64,000 bases of DNA from Streptomyces deccanensis (lineage in GTDB: Bacteria; Actinomycetota; Actinomycetes; Streptomycetales; Streptomycetaceae), in NCBI RefSeq assembly GCF_022385335.1, contig NZ_CP092431.1, positions 3,782,001 to 3,846,000 on the forward strand, read 5' to 3'. The notes beneath the pieces were generated by a model. It did not search any database and had not been told where the DNA came from. It was given only the letters and a program-made list of their open reading frames with translations. This document shows, in pieces, positions 2,245 to 55,518 of this stretch. Each line of letters begins with the position of its first letter. Position 1 is the stretch's first letter. Both the position numbers and the translations under genes were made by a program.

Positions 2245-4188
2245 GTGAGCATGTTCGACACGGTCCTCGTGGCCAACCGGGGCGAGATCGCCGTCCGCGT
2301 CATCCGTACGCTGCGGTCGCTGGGCGTCAGCTCCGTCGCCGTGTACTCCGACGCGGACGCCGACGCCCGGCACGTCCGGGAGGCCGACATGGCGGTACGG
2401 ATCGGCCCGCCGCCGGCGGCGGAGAGCTATCTGTCGGTGGAGCGGCTGCTGGAGGCCGCCGCCCGCACCGGCGCCCAGGCCGTCCACCCCGGGTACGGCT
2501 TCCTCGCGGAGAACGCCGCGTTCGCGCGGGCCTGCGCCGACGCGGGCCTCGTCTTCATCGGTCCCCCCGCCGACGCCATCTCCCTCATGGGCGACAAGAT
2601 CCGCGCCAAGGAGACGGTACGGGCGGCCGGGGTGCCGGTGGTGCCGGGCTCCAGCGGCAGCGGTCTGACCGACGGCCAACTCGCCGACGCGGCACGGGAG
2701 ATCGGCATGCCGGTGCTGCTGAAGCCCAGCGCGGGCGGCGGCGGCAAGGGCATGCGGCTGGTCCGGGACGCGGCCGTGCTGGGCGACGAGATCGCCGCCG
2801 CGCGGCGCGAGGCCCGCGCCTCCTTCGGTGACGACACCCTGCTCGTGGAGCGGTGGATCGACCGGCCCCGGCACATCGAGATCCAGGTCCTCGCCGACGG
2901 CCACGGCAATGTGATCCACCTCGGCGAGCGCGAGTGCTCGCTCCAGCGGAGGCACCAGAAGGTCATCGAGGAGGCGCCCAGCGTCCTGCTGGACGAGGCC
3001 ACGCGCGCGGCGATGGGCGAGGCGGCGGTGGAGGCGGCCCGCTCCTGCGGCTACCGGGGCGCGGGCACCGTGGAGTTCATCGTGCCGGGCGACGACCCGT
3101 CCTCGTACTACTTCATGGAGATGAACACCCGCCTCCAGGTGGAGCACCCGGTCACCGAACTGGTCACCGGCCTGGACCTGGTGGAGTGGCAGCTGCGGGT
3201 CGCGGCGGGCGAGCGGCTGCCGTTCGGGCAGGAGGACGTCCGGCTGACGGGGCACGCGATCGAGGCCCGCGTCTGCGCGGAGGACCCCGCCCGCGGGTTC
3301 CTGCCGTCCGGCGGCACGGTGCTGCGGCTGCGCGAGCCCCAGGGCGACGGCGTCCGCACGGACTCCGGCCTCAGTGAGGGCACGGAGGTCGGCTCGCTGT
3401 ACGACCCGATGCTGTCCAAGGTCATCGCGTACGGCCCCGACCGCGCGACCGCGCTCAGGAAGCTCCGGGCGGCCCTCGCGGACACGGTGACCCTGGGCGT
3501 GCAGACCAATGCGGGGTTCCTGCGGCGGCTGCTGGCCCATCCGGACGTGGTGAAGGGCGAGTTGGACACCGGGCTCGTCGAGCGGGTGGTGGACGACCTG
3601 GTCTCCACGGACGTACCGGAGGAGGTGTACGAGGCGGCGGCGGCCGTACGGCTGGAGGCTCTGCGTCCGCGCGACGAGGGCTGGACCGACCCCTTCTCGG
3701 TGCCGAGCGGCTGGCGGATGGGGGGCACGGGGTTCACGAGGCCCGTCGGCTTCCCGCTGCGGGTGCAGGACCCCGTGGAGTACGTCCCGCGCGGCACCCA
3801 CACCGTCACGGACGACCGGGTCACCGTCACCCTCGACGGCGTCCGGCACACCTTCCACCGCGCCGCCGACTGGATCGGCCGCGACGGCGACGCCTGGCAC
3901 GTGCGGGACCACGACCCGGTGGCCGCGTCCCTCACGCAGGCCGCCCACGCCGGCGCCGACTCGCTCACCGCGCCCATGCCCGGCACGGTGACCGTGGTGA
4001 AGGTCGCCGTGGGGGACGAAGTCGCCGCCGGACAGAGCCTGTTGGTGGTGGAGGCGATGAAGATGGAGCACGTCGTCTCCGCCCCGCACGCCGGCACGGT
4101 CGCCGAGCTGGACGTCACGCCGGGCACCACGGTCGCCATGGACCAGGTGCTGGCCGTGATCGCACCCCACGAGGAGGTGGCGCGGTGA
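2245..4188 (+). CDS. accA1: acyl-CoA carboxylase alpha subunit: biotin carboxylase plus biotin carrier
   Basis: 647 aa. Domains in order: biotin carboxylase N-domain ([16 protein letters not shown]), ATP-grasp ([41 protein letters not shown]), biotin carboxylase C-domain, a linker, and a C-terminal biotinyl domain with EAMKM, biotinylated lysine near residue 606. It carboxylates biotin with ATP and bicarbonate for the AccD1 partner. GTG at 2245 is chosen because GGGGGAG sits 6 nt upstream; the ATG at 2251 would be too far. The stop overlaps the next start, so translation is coupled. Confidence 0.93.
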
Positions 4189-50356: not shown

Positions 50357-51415
50357 ATGCCGCAGACCGAGGCGACCGAGGCACCGGCCAGCAGAACGAC
50401 CGGCGCACCGGTTACCGAGGGGACGCCTGGCACGCGGCTCCGCTGGTGGACCGAGCTGCCGCTGATCCTGCTGGTGTACGGGGCGTACTCGGCGGGCCGG
50501 CTGCTCGCCCGCGGCGACACCTCCCACGCCGTCGAGCACGGGCTGGCGATCCTGCGGATCGAGAAGGCGTTCCGGCTCAACGCCGAGCATCCGCTGAACC
50601 GTCTGTTCACGCGTGAACCCTGGATCGGGATACCCGCCGACTTCTGGTACGCGTCGCTGCACTACCTGGTCACCCCCGCGCTCCTGGTCTGGCTCTTCCG
50701 GTCGCACGCCGTGCGCTACCGCGCGGCCCGCACCTGGCTGCTGACCTCCACCTTTATCGGCCTCATCGGCTTCACCCTGCTGCCCACCTGCCCGCCCCGG
50801 CTGCTCGACCCCTCCCACGGCTTCGTCGACACGATGGCCCACTACAGCTCGTGGGGCTGGTGGGGCGGCGAGGCCAGCGCGCCCCGGGGCCTGGGCGGCA
50901 TGACCAACCAGTACGCGGCGATGCCGAGCCTGCACGTCGGCTGGGCCCTGTGGTGCGGGGTGATCCTGTGGCGCTTCGCGGGCGGCTCACCGCTCGTGCG
51001 GATCGCGGCCGTCGCGTACCCGCTGATCACCACGATCGTCGTGATGGGCACCGCGAACCACTACTTCCTCGACGCGGTGGCGGGCGCCGCCGTGATGGGG
51101 GCGGGCCTGCTGCTGACGCCGCTGGTGCTGCGACTCGCGGACCAGTGGCGGGTCTCGCTCGGCCTCGGCACGACGGCCGCGAGCCGGTTCGACGGCGGCG
51201 GCCGACGGCCCGTGGAGGCATCCGCCGACCGGCGGCCCGTGGAGGGGTCCGCCGTCGTGGCCACGGCCGCCTCTCGGGCCTCCCTTTCCCCAATTGTCAG
51301 TGGTGAGTGCCAGACTTCCCCGGGTGAGCGAATTCCACGGCAGCGGATCATCGAACCCGAGCCGGGTGCCGCCCCCTCGGAAGCAGGGGACGGCGCTGCG
51401 GCAGCGGCTCGCTGA
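50357..51415 (+). CDS. PAP2-family membrane phosphatase (Aur1/inositol-phosphotransferase-like)
   Basis: 352 aa, six predicted membrane helices. PAP2 motifs are MPSLHVGWALWCG (PSLH) and GTANHYFLDAVAG (H...D). The sequence around RNTY-less ALLVWLFRSHAVRYRAARTWL and CPPRLLDP resembles Aur1-type lipid phosphatases. The cytoplasmic C-terminal tail (residues about 270-352) is low-complexity with a 27-bp tandem repeat and overlaps the next gene by 92 nt. ATG 50357 follows GGGAGG by 9 nt; ATG 50312 is in frame. Confidence 0.85.
   Translation: MPQTEATEAPASRTTGAPVTEGTPGTRLRWWTELPLILLVYGAYSAGRLLARGDTSHAVEHGLAILRIEKAFRLNAEHPLNRLFTREPWIGIPADFWYASLHYLVTPALLVWLFRSHAVRYRAARTWLLTSTFIGLIGFTLLPTCPPRLLDPSHGFVDTMAHYSSWGWWGGEASAPRGLGGMTNQYAAMPSLHVGWALWCGVILWRFAGGSPLVRIAAVAYPLITTIVVMGTANHYFLDAVAGAAVMGAGLLLTPLVLRLADQWRVSLGLGTTAASRFDGGGRRPVEASADRRPVEGSAVVATAASRASLSPIVSGECQTSPGERIPRQRIIEPEPGAAPSEAGDGAAAAAR
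51204..51257 (+). repeat. 27-bp tandem duplication in the PAP2 C-terminal tail
   Basis: Two copies encoding RRPVEASAD and RRPVEGSAV, with three base differences in the central part. Lies just before the overlap with the nuclease gene. Confidence 0.85.
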
Positions 51416-52574
51416 GCTGCGCGGACCCGAGGTCCCACCCAAGGCGCTGGACGCGCGCGCCCTCGCCGCGCTCGCGGCCAACCCGGGCTGTGAGCGCCGC
51501 GCGCTGCTGGACGGCGCGGGGGTGAACAAGGCGGTCCTGGCGGACGCGCTCGGCTCGCCCTCCGCCTTCGGCCAGTCCCAGTTCGCGTTCATGCGGGGCA
51601 ACGCCTTCGAGGCCCGGGTCAAGGCGGACGGCGGCGCCGAACTGCTGCGGCTGGTCCACGAGAGACTGGACCCCGGTGCCGAGCCGCCGGCCTCGGCGTC
51701 GGTCCCCGACCTCGCCGCCGTCGGCCCCGAGGGCCGCGCCGCCCGTACGGCGCTGGCGCTGCGCGAGGCCACGGACGCCGGCGGCTGGACCCTGCTCGAC
51801 CACCCCATGCTCGCGCTCGACGTCGCGGGCTCCCCCGCGTTCCTGGAACCGGACGCGGTGGTGATCCACCCGGACGGCACCTGGTCGGTCGTCGAGATCA
51901 AGTCCTTCCCGATGCTGGACGGTTCGGCGGACCCGGCGAAGGTGGGCGCCGCCGCCCGCCAGTCCGCGGTGTACGTGCTGGCGCTGGAGGAGGTCGCCTC
52001 CCGGCTCGGCGGCGAGGCCCGCGGCGGCGCCCCCGCGCCCGAGGTGCGCCATCGGGTGCTGCTGGTCTGCCCCAAGGACTTCACCAACCTCCCGACGGCC
52101 GCGGCGGTGGACATCCGCAAGCAACGGGCGGTCACTCGCCGCCAGTTGACCCGGCTGACCCGCATCGAGGAGATCGCGGACGACCTGCCCGAGGGCACCT
52201 GCTTCGCGCCGGACCTGCCCCGGGAGCAGCTGACGACGGCCGTCGAGGCGCTCTCCGCGACCTACGCCCCCGAGTGCCTCGCCGCCTGCGAGCTGGCCTT
52301 CCACTGCCGGGCCCGCTCCCGCACGGAGGGCGCGGTGACCTCCCTGGGGCGGGCCGCACGGGCGGAGCTGGGCGGTCTCACCACCGTCGACGACGTCCTG
52401 GCGGCGGCCCACGGCCACGCCGGCGACCCGGACGACCCGGCCGTGGCCGCGCTGCGCAGAGCGGCGGAGCTACGGGCGGAGGCGCTGGGAGCCGCCGGGC
52501 TCGGCACCGCCGGCGCGCCCCCGGCGTCGGCCACCCTTCCCGGCCCGGCGCCGGAGGGGGTTCCGTGTCGCTGA
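51324..52574 (+). CDS. RecB/Cas4-like Fe-S PD-(D/E)XK nuclease
   Basis: 416 aa from GTG 51324 (no good ribosome-binding site; GTG 51300 and 51303 are alternatives). The nuclease core shows Asp177 in EPDAVV, Glu191-x-Lys193 in VVEIKSF, and the QxxxY motif Gln213/Tyr217 in ARQSAVYVLAL, typical of RecB, AddB, Cas4 and Dna2. Cysteines 293, 318, 322 and 328 (GTCFAP; ECLAACELAFHC) form a likely 4Fe-4S site as in those enzymes. Expected to cut or resect single-stranded DNA ends. It overlaps the next gene by 10 nt and heads a coupled operon with a helicase. Confidence 0.82.
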   Translation: MSEFHGSGSSNPSRVPPPRKQGTALRQRLAELRGPEVPPKALDARALAALAANPGCERRALLDGAGVNKAVLADALGSPSAFGQSQFAFMRGNAFEARVKADGGAELLRLVHERLDPGAEPPASASVPDLAAVGPEGRAARTALALREATDAGGWTLLDHPMLALDVAGSPAFLEPDAVVIHPDGTWSVVEIKSFPMLDGSADPAKVGAAARQSAVYVLALEEVASRLGGEARGGAPAPEVRHRVLLVCPKDFTNLPTAAAVDIRKQRAVTRRQLTRLTRIEEIADDLPEGTCFAPDLPREQLTTAVEALSATYAPECLAACELAFHCRARSRTEGAVTSLGRAARAELGGLTTVDDVLAAAHGHAGDPDDPAVAALRRAAELRAEALGAAGLGTAGAPPASATLPGPAPEGVPCR

Positions 52575-54178
52575 TCGCCACCCTCGCCCGTCTCGAAGCC
52601 GTCAGCTCGGGGCGCGCCCAGCCCGCCGCCACCGTCCTGCACCGGCATCTCTCCGCCCACCCCCTCGTCCTCGTGCCGCTCACCACCGCCGGTGAGGCCG
52701 GGGCCCCGCTCGGCGCGCTCGCCGGCACCGACCGGGACGCGCCCCGCCTGTTGGTGGTGCCCCAGCCCCGCGACCGTGACCTGCGCTTCGCGTTCCTCGC
52801 CGAGCTGGCGGACATCGTCCTGCCCTACGTGGACGGCTACGCCGACGTGGTGGAGGCCGCCGAGCGCAGCGAGACCGACCCGGAGACCGGCAAACGCGTC
52901 AAGGTCGAGGTCGAACTGTGCGCGGACGCCCCGCAGTTGATCCTGCCGAGCCGGACGGGCATCGACTTCGTACGGCTCCTCGGGCGCTCCATGCGGTTCC
53001 GGCGCACCGCCGAGCAGGACCCGGAGGCACCCCATCCGGCGCCGCCGCGCGTGCCGTTGCTCGGGCGGTGGCTCACGCACTTCGGGGAGCGGGCGCGGGT
53101 GCCGGGCTCCTCGCTGCTGCTCGCCCTCACCGACCTGCTGTCCAAGCACTGGGCCACCGGCCAGTCCGGGGTGGAGGACCAGCATCTGGGGTCGCTGCTC
53201 GCCTGGATCGACCCGCCGGAGGGGGAGTCGGGCGAGGCGGCGGCGCGACGGGCCGAGCTGGCGCGGGACGCCGCCGGCCAGTTGCTGTGCCCGCCCGCCG
53301 GGCCCGCGACCGATCCGGCGTTCGACAACAAGCTGCTGGCCCCGGCCATCGAGCGGTACGACCGGGCGCGGCTCGCGCTGGCCGCCGCCGAGGACGGTCT
53401 GGAGGCCGACGACCGGCTGGGTGCGCTGACCGCCGCCGAGCAGGAGATCCGCGATCTGGTGGAGAGCCGCACCCGGCCCACCTGGGACGCGGTGTGGCAC
53501 GGCCTGGATCTGCTGCGCGCCCTGCCGGAGGGTGCCCACGCGGCCGACCGGTGGACCCGCGACCGCTGGTCCTTCACCGGCCACCGGGACCGCATCGTCG
53601 CCGGGGAGCCCCCGCAGCCGCGCGTCGACGACGCGGTCACCGCCGCGAACAAGCTGGCCGCGCGCGAGCGTGAACAGGCCCGCCTCGACGCCCAGGAGGC
53701 CCTGGACGACCCCCTCGTGATGGCCGGGCGACGGCTGTCCGGTGAGGCGTTCGCCGGTGAGGTCGTGGACGTCGTGATGGCCTACAGCGAGGGCAAGCGG
53801 CCGAGCCCCCGGCCCCTGGTCACCGTGGCGACGCGGGACCGGCCGCATCTCGGGGAGCGCGCGAAGGTGTACCGCTCGCTGGGCGGGAAGCCGCAGACGG
53901 CGGAGTTCGTGGGGCACGAGCCGGGCGAGGCGGCCGACGGACGCGAGAGCCTGCTGGTCCTGCGGATCATGGACAAGATGGGGCGGGGCAAGGAGCCGGA
54001 GGTGGGGTCCGTCCCCGAGAAGGGGGACCGGCTCTGCTTCACCCTGTTCGAACACGACCAGCGGGGCGGGGCGAAGCTGCCCGACCCGGAGGAGACACCG
54101 TGGACGCACGGCGGGCCGCCGGGTGAGCCCGACGCCGTACCGGTGCCGGACCCGGTGACCGAGGAGGACGTCCTGTGA
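52565..54178 (+). CDS. uncharacterised partner of the nuclease-helicase operon
   Basis: 537 aa from GTG 52565 (GGAGGGGG upstream). No recognised domain, signal or membrane segment. The first 300 residues are mainly helical and acidic (AELADIVLPYVDGYADVVEA; GRSMRFRRTAEQDPE; LTDLLSKHWATGQSGVEDQHL). Residues about 400-510 look beta-rich (RPLVTVATRDRPHLGERAKV; SLLVLRIMDKMGR; KGDRLCFTLFEHD) and could be an OB/beta-barrel like the 1B barrel of Dna2 and Upf1 helicases; this is inference. It overlaps both neighbours (10 and 4 nt). Confidence 0.75.
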   Translation: MSLIATLARLEAVSSGRAQPAATVLHRHLSAHPLVLVPLTTAGEAGAPLGALAGTDRDAPRLLVVPQPRDRDLRFAFLAELADIVLPYVDGYADVVEAAERSETDPETGKRVKVEVELCADAPQLILPSRTGIDFVRLLGRSMRFRRTAEQDPEAPHPAPPRVPLLGRWLTHFGERARVPGSSLLLALTDLLSKHWATGQSGVEDQHLGSLLAWIDPPEGESGEAAARRAELARDAAGQLLCPPAGPATDPAFDNKLLAPAIERYDRARLALAAAEDGLEADDRLGALTAAEQEIRDLVESRTRPTWDAVWHGLDLLRALPEGAHAADRWTRDRWSFTGHRDRIVAGEPPQPRVDDAVTAANKLAAREREQARLDAQEALDDPLVMAGRRLSGEAFAGEVVDVVMAYSEGKRPSPRPLVTVATRDRPHLGERAKVYRSLGGKPQTAEFVGHEPGEAADGRESLLVLRIMDKMGRGKEPEVGSVPEKGDRLCFTLFEHDQRGGAKLPDPEETPWTHGGPPGEPDAVPVPDPVTEEDVL

Positions 54179-55518
54179 CCCCCGCCGAGGCCGTGCTCGA
54201 CCCCGGGGCGGCGGCCGGCCGCGCCACCGACGCCATCCTGCGCGACACGTTGCACGGCGACGCGCGCGGTGTCGTCGTCGACTCGCCGCCCGGCGCCGGG
54301 AAGTCGACGCTCGTGGTGCGCGCCGCGCTCGAACTCGCCTCCGCCGGGCGCCCGTTGATGGTCATCGCGCAGACGAACGCGCAGGTGGACGACCTGGTGG
54401 TCCGGCTCGCCGAGAAGGACCCGGAGCTCCCGGTCGGCCGGTTGCACAGCAGCGACAGCGACCCGTACGACAAGGCGCTGGACGCCCTGCCGAACGTACG
54501 GAAGTCGACGAAGGCGGCCGATCTGGCCGGGCTGGACGTGGTGATCTCCACGGCCGCGAAGTGGGCGCACGTCAAGGGCGTCGAGCCGTGGCGGCACGCG
54601 ATCGTCGACGAGGCGTACCAGATGCGGTCGGACGCGCTGCTGGCCGTGGCGGGGCTGTTCGAGCGCGCGCTGTTCGTGGGTGACCCGGGGCAGCTGGACC
54701 CGTTCGCGATCGTGGGCAGCGAGCAGTGGGCGGGGCTGTCGTACGACCCGTCGGCCTCGGCGGTGACGACGCTGCTGGCCCACAACCCCGAGCTGCCGCA
54801 GCACCGGCTGCCGGTGTCGTGGCGGCTCCCGGCGTCGGCGGCGCCCCTGGTCTCCGACGCGTTCTATCCCTTCACGCCCTTCCGCAGCGGCACGGACCAC
54901 GGGGACCGGCGGCTCGGGTTCGCGGTGCCGTCGGACGGCTCCGGCCCGGACCGGGTCATCGACGAGGCCGCCGAGTCGGGGTGGGGGCTGCTGGAGCTGC
55001 CGGCCCGGCACACACCTCGCACGGACCCCGAGGCGGTGCGGGCCGTGGCGCAGGTCGTACGGCGGCTCCTCGACCGGGGCGGGGCGGCGACCTCGGAGCG
55101 GTCCGAGGAGCCCGTGCCGCTGACCGCCGACCGGATCGCCGTCGGCACGGCCCATCGCGACCAGGCCGCGGCGGTGCGCGCCGCGCTGGCGGAGCTGGGC
55201 GTCGCGGACGTGGTGGTGGACACGGCGAACCGTCTGCAGGGCCGGGAGTACGACGTGACGGTCGTCCTCCATCCGCTCTCCGGGCGCCCCGACGCGACGG
55301 CGTTCCACCTGGAGACCGGGCGGCTGTGCGTCCTCGCCTCCCGGCACCGGCACGCCTGCATCGTGGTGTGCCGGGCGGGCGTCACCGACCTGCTCGACGA
55401 CCATCCGTCCACCGAGCCGGTGCAGCTGGGCGTGACCGTGAAGTTCCCGGACGGCTGGGAGGCGAACCACGCGGTGCTGGCGACGCTGGCGGAGCACCGG
55501 GTGGGATGGGCGCCTTGA
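54175..55518 (+). CDS. SF1B (Dna2/Upf1-like) helicase
   Basis: 447 aa. Motif I DSPPGAGKST (Lys43), Ia VIAQTNAQVDDLVV, II VDEAYQM (Asp145-Glu146, DEAxQ form), III GDPGQLDPF, IV VSWRLPASAAPLVSDAFYP corresponding to the YR-x-HP region, V DTANRLQGREYDVTVVL, VI RLCVLASRHRHACIVV. These match Dna2/Upf1-type SF1B helicases more than UvrD/RecB. It lacks the N-terminal stalk and barrel of those proteins, which may be supplied by the partner protein. ATGA overlap with the upstream gene. Confidence 0.88.
   Translation: MTPAEAVLDPGAAAGRATDAILRDTLHGDARGVVVDSPPGAGKSTLVVRAALELASAGRPLMVIAQTNAQVDDLVVRLAEKDPELPVGRLHSSDSDPYDKALDALPNVRKSTKAADLAGLDVVISTAAKWAHVKGVEPWRHAIVDEAYQMRSDALLAVAGLFERALFVGDPGQLDPFAIVGSEQWAGLSYDPSASAVTTLLAHNPELPQHRLPVSWRLPASAAPLVSDAFYPFTPFRSGTDHGDRRLGFAVPSDGSGPDRVIDEAAESGWGLLELPARHTPRTDPEAVRAVAQVVRRLLDRGGAATSERSEEPVPLTADRIAVGTAHRDQAAAVRAALAELGVADVVVDTANRLQGREYDVTVVLHPLSGRPDATAFHLETGRLCVLASRHRHACIVVCRAGVTDLLDDHPSTEPVQLGVTVKFPDGWEANHAVLATLAEHRVGWAP

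Follow-up and report, generated by a model that had tools for sequence, protein, structure and literature searches.

Among bacterial DNA2-like helicase-nucleases, Bad of Geobacillus stearothermophilus is reported to be a single chain that carries an iron-sulfur (Fe-S) cluster and acts as a single-stranded DNA (ssDNA) endonuclease and a 5′-to-3′ helicase, and the same source describes DNA2-like enzymes as sporadic in bacteria, Geobacilli and Mycobacteria included (PMC7430649). Because Bad is active according to that report, DNA2-like enzyme activity is possible in bacteria. Here we describe three overlapping genes, named A, B and C, in a 64,000-nucleotide stretch of Streptomyces deccanensis DNA (hereafter the window; positions 3782001-3846000 of the single 10.1 Mb contig NZ_CP092431.1), which are likely to encode three pieces of a Dna2/Bad-type helicase-nuclease and, as one translationally coupled operon, to serve the DNA-damage response of Streptomyces. 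As far as Bad is described there, the locus resembles it in combining an iron-staple nuclease with a superfamily 1B (SF1B) helicase; unlike Bad, which is one polypeptide, it consists of three genes, belongs to the core of a whole family and has a damage-type promoter. The kind of enzyme is known from Bad, and what would be new is the three-gene split, the core status, the damage promoter and the partnership with SbcCD (Mre11-Rad50). No description of a three-gene Dna2 or of this operon was found among the open-licence papers searched.

Other described systems share parts of this arrangement. In mouse Dna2, the nuclease, the barrel with its stalk and the helicase are reported to follow one another in this order (eLife 09832), which is also that of A, B and C, and the eukaryotic enzyme has an Fe-S cluster; it differs in being one chain with an OB domain before the nuclease, and B (537 amino acids, aa) exceeds the length that a barrel plus stalk would require. 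AdnAB, named the main helicase-nuclease of Streptomyces (PMC5869714), would share with A-B-C the role of a helicase-nuclease for breaks in this genus. The single-chain TIGR03491 (TM0106) fusions have nuclease, barrel and helicase parts that align to A, B and C; they differ in forming a single frame of 1131-1442 codons (10 used) and in having an extra region between nuclease and barrel, judged RNase H-like, with RNase_H_2 scanned only in a related protein at locus L119, and none of them was found in the 4 own-genus genomes among 60 searched. AdnAB differs from A-B-C in consisting of UvrD-type helicases with fused nucleases. The iron-staple nucleases Cas4 and AddB have one cysteine followed by C-x2/3-C-x5-C together with the D, ExK and QxxxY set, a pattern seen in Cas4 sequences and shared by A, whereas A is longer and is undetected by the Pfam Cas4 and PDDEXK models. 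The cores of MkoA/MkoC, PLuB_AAA, GajB and similar defence helicases match C, but the match covers only a part of these much longer proteins and lies below the curated cut-offs where such are given, and A and B are without counterpart models.

Operon architecture and assignment of the three proteins

Gene A (51324..52574, 416 aa) is predicted to encode an iron-sulfur (iron-staple) nuclease of the RecB/Cas4 type, gene B (52565..54178, 537 aa) a barrel subunit whose N-terminal ~370 residues are without assignment, and gene C (54175..55518, 447 aa) a Upf1/Dna2-type SF1B helicase core; all three start with GTG and, like every window feature given below, lie on the plus strand. A sequence-only reading of this DNA had proposed three same-strand genes overlapping by 10 and 4 nt, and the open reading frames (ORFs), their order, strand and overlaps were all confirmed: A ends at 52574, 10 nt into B (GTG at 52565), and B ends at 54178, 4 nt into C (GTG at 54175). 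By sequence, all three are genuine ORFs, and they are coupled. Orthologues of A in named Streptomyces reach 94% identity. Among the best 80 loci of at least 434 relatives found by contig scan, all 80 from Streptomyces, A, B and C are present in 77, in identical order in 77/77 (counting L042, where C is cut by the contig end), and the remaining three loci break off where the contig ends or close to that point. In 66 of the 77, A and B overlap by exactly 10 nt, and both junctions have 4-nt overlaps in L118 and L119, whose proteins are 18-34% identical. The expectation that a survey might find the three genes usually apart was not borne out, since they stand together at all 77 Streptomyces loci that reach far enough and at 30 of 32 further loci. 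In genomes G204 and G615, A and B are adjacent and a full-length C is kept 36 and 49 kb away, so that the genes are separable yet persist together. Each of the 77 Streptomyces loci, and each of the 40 loci of a tree set, has them as distinct ORFs, and the system is therefore better called Dna2-like and split than a standard member of the Dna2/Bad helicase-nucleases. A histidine-phosphatase gene was seen upstream of the core operon in the three loci inspected (window, L010 and L121).

The residues of gene A were compared in 241 sequences, comprising the window protein and, for either of two clades, the 120 proteins listed highest (among 3256 and 736 matches, one search each), a non-random sample; clade 2, found via genomes G165 and G252, is about 24-30% identical in A and about 18-25% in B. 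The RecB/Cas4/Dna2 residue set and the four cysteines that the sequence-only reading had named are exact, and C56, D177, E191, K193, Q213, Y217, C318, C322 and C328 are each invariant (241/241) across the two clades. Cys56, the first of the four cluster cysteines, is encoded at 51489..51491, the catalytic stretch D177, E191xK193 and Q213xxxY217, which aligns to the Cas4 profile, at 51852..51974, and the C-terminal cysteine triplet C318x3C322x5C328 at 52275..52307. Other cysteines, C249 and C293, are cysteine in just 121 and 120 of the 241 sequences and are not conserved between the clades, which makes the four-cysteine set specific. Within 14 aligned Streptomyces A sequences the named residues are invariant, as are many other positions, and the comparison with the distant clade 2 is the more telling one. 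In the 40-locus tree set, where accessory copies are included, 40/40 loci retain D177, Y217 and the four cysteines; Q213 is found in 39, K193 in 38 and E191 in 37. The three loci that have lost E191 (L116, L156 and L153) are all accessory, and two of them have Arg for Lys, with the four cysteines retained in each; since the catalytic Glu is missing, some accessory A copies, namely these three, may be nuclease-dead variants.

No match to gene A at E≤1 was found in Pfam, NCBIfam, PADLOC or PHROGs, the Cas4 profile (PF01930) included, and sequence searches of the PDB with A and B gave nothing usable. The assignment of A to the PD-(D/E)XK superfamily, as put forward in the sequence-only reading, is thus not supplied by library profiles; it stands on a profile-profile comparison, in which A scores above shuffles against Cas4 and the Bad-type nuclease, together with the invariant residues.

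The reference profiles for this comparison derive from actinobacterial nuclease-helicase proteins of the single-chain TIGR03491 type (12 regions giving 10 usable frames, 7 with C-x2-C-x5-C); the cuts that separate their nuclease, barrel and helicase parts were placed according to the distance to Walker A. On the diagonal, hhalign scored 26.0 for A with the nuclease part, 32.6 for B with the barrel part and 223 (E 5.8e-30) for C with the helicase part, while the six off-diagonal pairings gave 14.7-17.1 and further controls (the accessory gene X described below, SbcD and the RNase H-like region; Cas4 for B and C) gave 11.8-21.1. The score of A with Cas4 was 28.7, reached by 0/199 scored column shuffles (maximum 23.6); that of A with the nuclease part was reached by 0/190 scored shuffles (200 run; maximum 20.5), and that of B with the barrel by 0/200 (maximum 22.8). 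The A-Cas4 alignment spans D..ExK..QxxxY, and the alignment of A with the Bad-type nuclease spans QxxxY and the cysteine triplet. The proposal of a split Dna2, made before any of these comparisons, is supported by them: A matches only the nuclease, the C-terminus of B only the barrel and C only the helicase of single-chain Dna2/Bad-type proteins. TIGR00376 helicases, considered as a second barrel set, gave fragmented matches with none over cut-off and were not used.

Like A, gene B was matched at E≤1 by none of the models in the four libraries named above. The barrel candidate comprises residues 416-472 (53810..53980), which align to the barrel preceding the helicase in single-chain Bad/TM0106-type proteins, so that a barrel between nuclease and helicase is recognised here by profile only; with the RNase H-like region of Bad-type proteins there was no match (15.4). 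In genome G193 (L123:6138-7850) and several other genomes, the match to B is broken before the last ~70 residues by extra sequence, which in G193 is an insertion of ~40 residues in the same frame; we read this as a variable insert within the predicted barrel.

Gene C matches Pfam AAA_11 and AAA_12 above cut-off, and the best PDB sequence matches of its profile are three DNA2 entries (E 4.9e-14), followed by Smubp2 (9.6e-10) and Upf1 relatives. The SF1B motifs, read earlier as of the Dna2/Upf1 form, recur among 38 C proteins: motif I (Walker A GAGKST, 54292..54309) and motif III in 38/38, motif V (ANRLQGREYD, 55225..55254) and motif VI in 37/38, and the motif II pattern in 32/38, with motif II (DEAYQ) to motif III (GDPGQLDP) spanning 54607..54702. 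Since C starts shortly before Walker A, it would have no barrel of its own. It also matches the cores of defence helicases, at best with 54 bits (PLuB_AAA, NCBIfam) and in PADLOC with 30.9 bits; no known anti-phage system was recognised, as A and B have no match and C has helicase-core matches only.

A damage-type promoter before gene A

The published RecA-NDp consensus is tTGTCRgtg-8nt-TannnT (PMC5656591); this promoter type is reported for recA and SCO6735 of S. coelicolor (PMC5087735), and PafBC is described as its activator in mycobacteria (PMC6789036, PMC8223512, PMC11804915). A candidate promoter of this RecA-NDp/PafBC type, TTGTCAGTG-N8-CAGACT (51294..51316), precedes gene A, and its -10 part ends 7 nt before the GTG start; with this geometry, the operon message would be leaderless. 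The pattern has no other match in the window and none in 100 shuffles. All 80 Streptomyces loci, which are related and hence not 80 independent events, have the element at -30, its first part being exact in 76 and showing one mismatch in 4, and the spacer varies. Of the six family loci without X among the 32 further loci described below, the promoter was found in five, namely L122, L123 (own genus), L158, L162 and L163 (genus group g224); the 9-mer of L163 is one letter off, and that of the sixth locus, L121, likewise. A-B-C is probably used in the DNA-damage response across most of the family.

The S. deccanensis genome contains 70 matches to the pattern when the first -10 base is left free, versus 0 to the reversed pattern. 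Thirty of the matches were examined: an ORF by a set rule follows 27, and 16 of the ORFs start -2 to 15 nt past the element. The ten downstream genes that were scanned, chosen partly for a repair-like look and so giving a biased rate, encode a DNA ligase, a UDG, a Y-family polymerase, UvrB, MGMT, HolA and a RecD2-HHH protein, as well as a DEAD helicase, an SMI1/KNR4 protein and a protein with a domain of unknown function. This Streptomyces seems to have a large regulon of the RecA-NDp/PafBC type. The promoter before the operon argues for a damage-induced repair role, and the earlier suggestion of repair from a core position, made with no mention of the promoter, is both supported and strengthened by it. 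Two identical motifs of this type (3198-3220 on the plus strand and 10098281-10098303 on the minus strand of the contig, G000:C1) lie ~3.2 kb from each contig end, as expected for the terminal inverted repeats of a linear chromosome; no ORF satisfying the rule follows the left one.

Family core and accessory cassettes

With a diverse B profile (E≤0.001), B was found in 119 of 121 genomes of the family Streptomycetaceae, covering 17/17 genus groups, a count of B alone in which core and accessory copies are pooled. The two family genomes without B (G434 and G366) are also without a true C, having generic helicase matches only (E 8e-8 to 7e-4), and the S. deccanensis genome has one match each to A, B and C. 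At the level of the class, B is in 48/296 genomes and 12/114 genus groups, including 27/28 genomes of the own genus. A phylum sample of 346 genomes yielded clade-1 B in 12, the same 12 carrying A, and clade-2 B in 2, with three further weak A matches. Two of these belong to clade 2, and the third (G009, E 8.7e-4; L120) was dropped, tblastn having found no A, B or C. In a search of phage records, as distinct from viral contigs, B was not found, and only 3 plasmid records contained a B relative, of which one (L126, 11.85 Mb) is probably a chromosome; the two small plasmids that carry copies are recorded as linear in one case and as circular in the other. Near the clade-2 A-B-C cassette of L118 lies a gene resembling a tyrosine integrase (L118:9378-10558, judged by reading the sequence alone), and beside that of L119 a gene whose protein matches PDDEXK_1 weakly and RNase_H_2 clearly, resembling in this the TM0106 nuclease half (L119:3062-4753).

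The 32 further loci were taken from B/A matches in other genomes and in plasmid records, plus 8 from family genomes, several of which hold a second copy. All have A and B, which was the selection criterion, and C stands beside them in 30. A fourth gene, X, encoding ~250-290 aa with a coiled-coil-like start, precedes A in 19 of the 32 (for example L124:9971-10813 and L126:7929-8696). No consistent Pfam match was obtained among 13 members of X, and X was found in 2/19 genomes tested and not in the S. deccanensis genome. SbcCD divergently adjoins X in 6 of the 19 loci (L117, L124, L125, L151, L160 and L161), with both the SbcC and the SbcD genes fragmented in L125; TIGR00619 is above cut-off for five SbcD proteins at X loci, and four intact SbcD proteins are 41-73% identical to that of L124. 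In two SbcCD-bearing X loci, both on plasmids, the Wadjet genes JetABCD follow C (with a PADLOC call for L124), and HmaA adjoins C in L116. A gene for a ResIII/HA-domain helicase was also noted after C in two SbcCD loci (L117:11910-14150 and L160:5780-7981).

In the tree of the 40 loci, a clade with support 100 unites the promoter-bearing copies of the family, and a second one, with support 97, comprises the SbcCD loci and L150. Because the latter is a single clade, the link with SbcCD would be one old association kept over deep divergence and not six origins. A single origin of the X-less copies is not claimed, with a support of 34 and X loci that are not a clade as rooted. The damage promoter was found at 0/19 X loci and 0/7 X-less loci outside the family; start sites in this survey of the further loci are approximate.

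Competing explanations and biological meaning

Combined, the observations comprise an operon, a B gene near-universal in the family, invariant nuclease and cysteine sets, an SF1B helicase, a barrel match and a RecA-NDp promoter. If the three proteins form a split Dna2/Bad-type enzyme, ssDNA made by damage would switch on PafBC, which would transcribe the operon as a leaderless message; the barrel of B would dock onto C and complete a 5′-to-3′ translocase, and A, held by its iron-sulfur staple, would sit on the strand path and cut the strand. Working beside AdnAB and SbcCD, the complex could then trim 5′-ended strands so that RecA can be loaded, whether at breaks, at flaps or at stalled forks. 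The related X-A-B-C cassettes could employ this enzyme too, in some cases together with a Mre11-Rad50 (SbcCD) of their own, and foreign or broken DNA would be the probable target. A broader proposal, which we put forward only tentatively and with rather less than even expectation, is that Actinobacteria have, in modular form, a counterpart of eukaryotic MRN-Dna2 end resection, a three-subunit Dna2 with X and a dedicated SbcCD in mobile cassettes, some on plasmids with Wadjet, from which Streptomyces and its relatives would have recruited an X-less A-B-C into the PafBC regulon as core repair.

Several observations weigh against the split repair enzyme. The absolute hhalign probabilities are low (A-Cas4 8%, A-nuclease 2%, B-barrel 15%), only the scores relative to controls being convincing, and the folds of A and B are therefore supported, not proven. 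Most of B is without assignment, its barrel match covering residues 416-472, and a stalk was not identified; the single window sequence of C, searched against the PDB, finds Smubp2 first and not DNA2; and no natural A-B or B-C fusion occurs in the 77 Streptomyces and 40 tree-set loci. The -10 part of the window promoter, CAGACT, has C as its first base, one letter off the consensus TannnT. A 2022 study of S. venezuelae stated that an initial search suggested that the M. smegmatis PafBC motif is not conserved there (PMC9380542), a statement that deserves re-examination in view of the 70 versus 0 motif counts. In addition, a repair gene would not be expected to be as sporadic as clade 2 and the accessory copies are.

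On the one hand, this last pattern could suit a family that is primarily anti-phage or anti-plasmid, in which X-A-B-C degrades foreign DNA with SbcCD, after cleavage by Wadjet, and the core operon is either domesticated or still an immune copy. Two accessory copies stand on plasmids between SbcCD and JetABCD and one beside HmaA, the distribution in the class is sporadic (48/296, 27 of the own genus included), and the damage promoter is missing from all 19 X loci. On the other hand, the window copy is that of a gene found in 119/121 genomes of the family; it stands behind a DNA-damage promoter and resides in a genome with a single match to each of A, B and C and no X, while no PADLOC model matches A or B and B is in no phage record; we regard a primarily defensive role of the family as unlikely, though deserving some weight, and defence against phages or plasmids is possible for the accessory copies. 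It is more doubtful still that there is no Dna2-like machine, with A working alone as a nuclease of the Cas4 kind, C as a helicase of the Upf1 kind, perhaps on RNA, and B as a coupled protein unrelated to either. Such a case would fit the low absolute probabilities that A and B reach in the profile comparisons, the matches of C to Upf1, Smubp2 and Sen1-type proteins and the separation of A-B from C in G204 and G615; yet co-occurrence and order are strict where examined, DNA2 outranks Smubp2 and Upf1 for the C profile, B matches a barrel absent from C, and the links with SbcCD and a damage promoter indicate DNA.

Dna2 acts at eukaryotic telomeres, and the operon could likewise serve the ends of linear chromosomes, processing 5′ ends or 3′ overhangs at the telomeres of linear actinobacterial replicons. 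Near-universality in the family and the linear chromosome of Streptomyces, as described in PMC5869714, would agree with this role, but the genes also occur in other families of the class and one of the two small plasmids is circular by its record, which leaves it very improbable. The three-piece Dna2/Bad-type enzyme in the damage response thus remains the reading that we prefer.

Double-strand-break repair in Streptomyces is known to differ from that of model bacteria, and a core Dna2-type enzyme, if true, would be an overlooked player in it. The system would also be a naturally split one, in which nuclease, barrel and helicase could be removed singly, as is not possible with a single-chain Dna2. 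Through the accessory copies, a Dna2-like unit would be linked with Mre11-Rad50 as well as with plasmid-cleaving defence, which bears on the parts that are common to repair and immunity.

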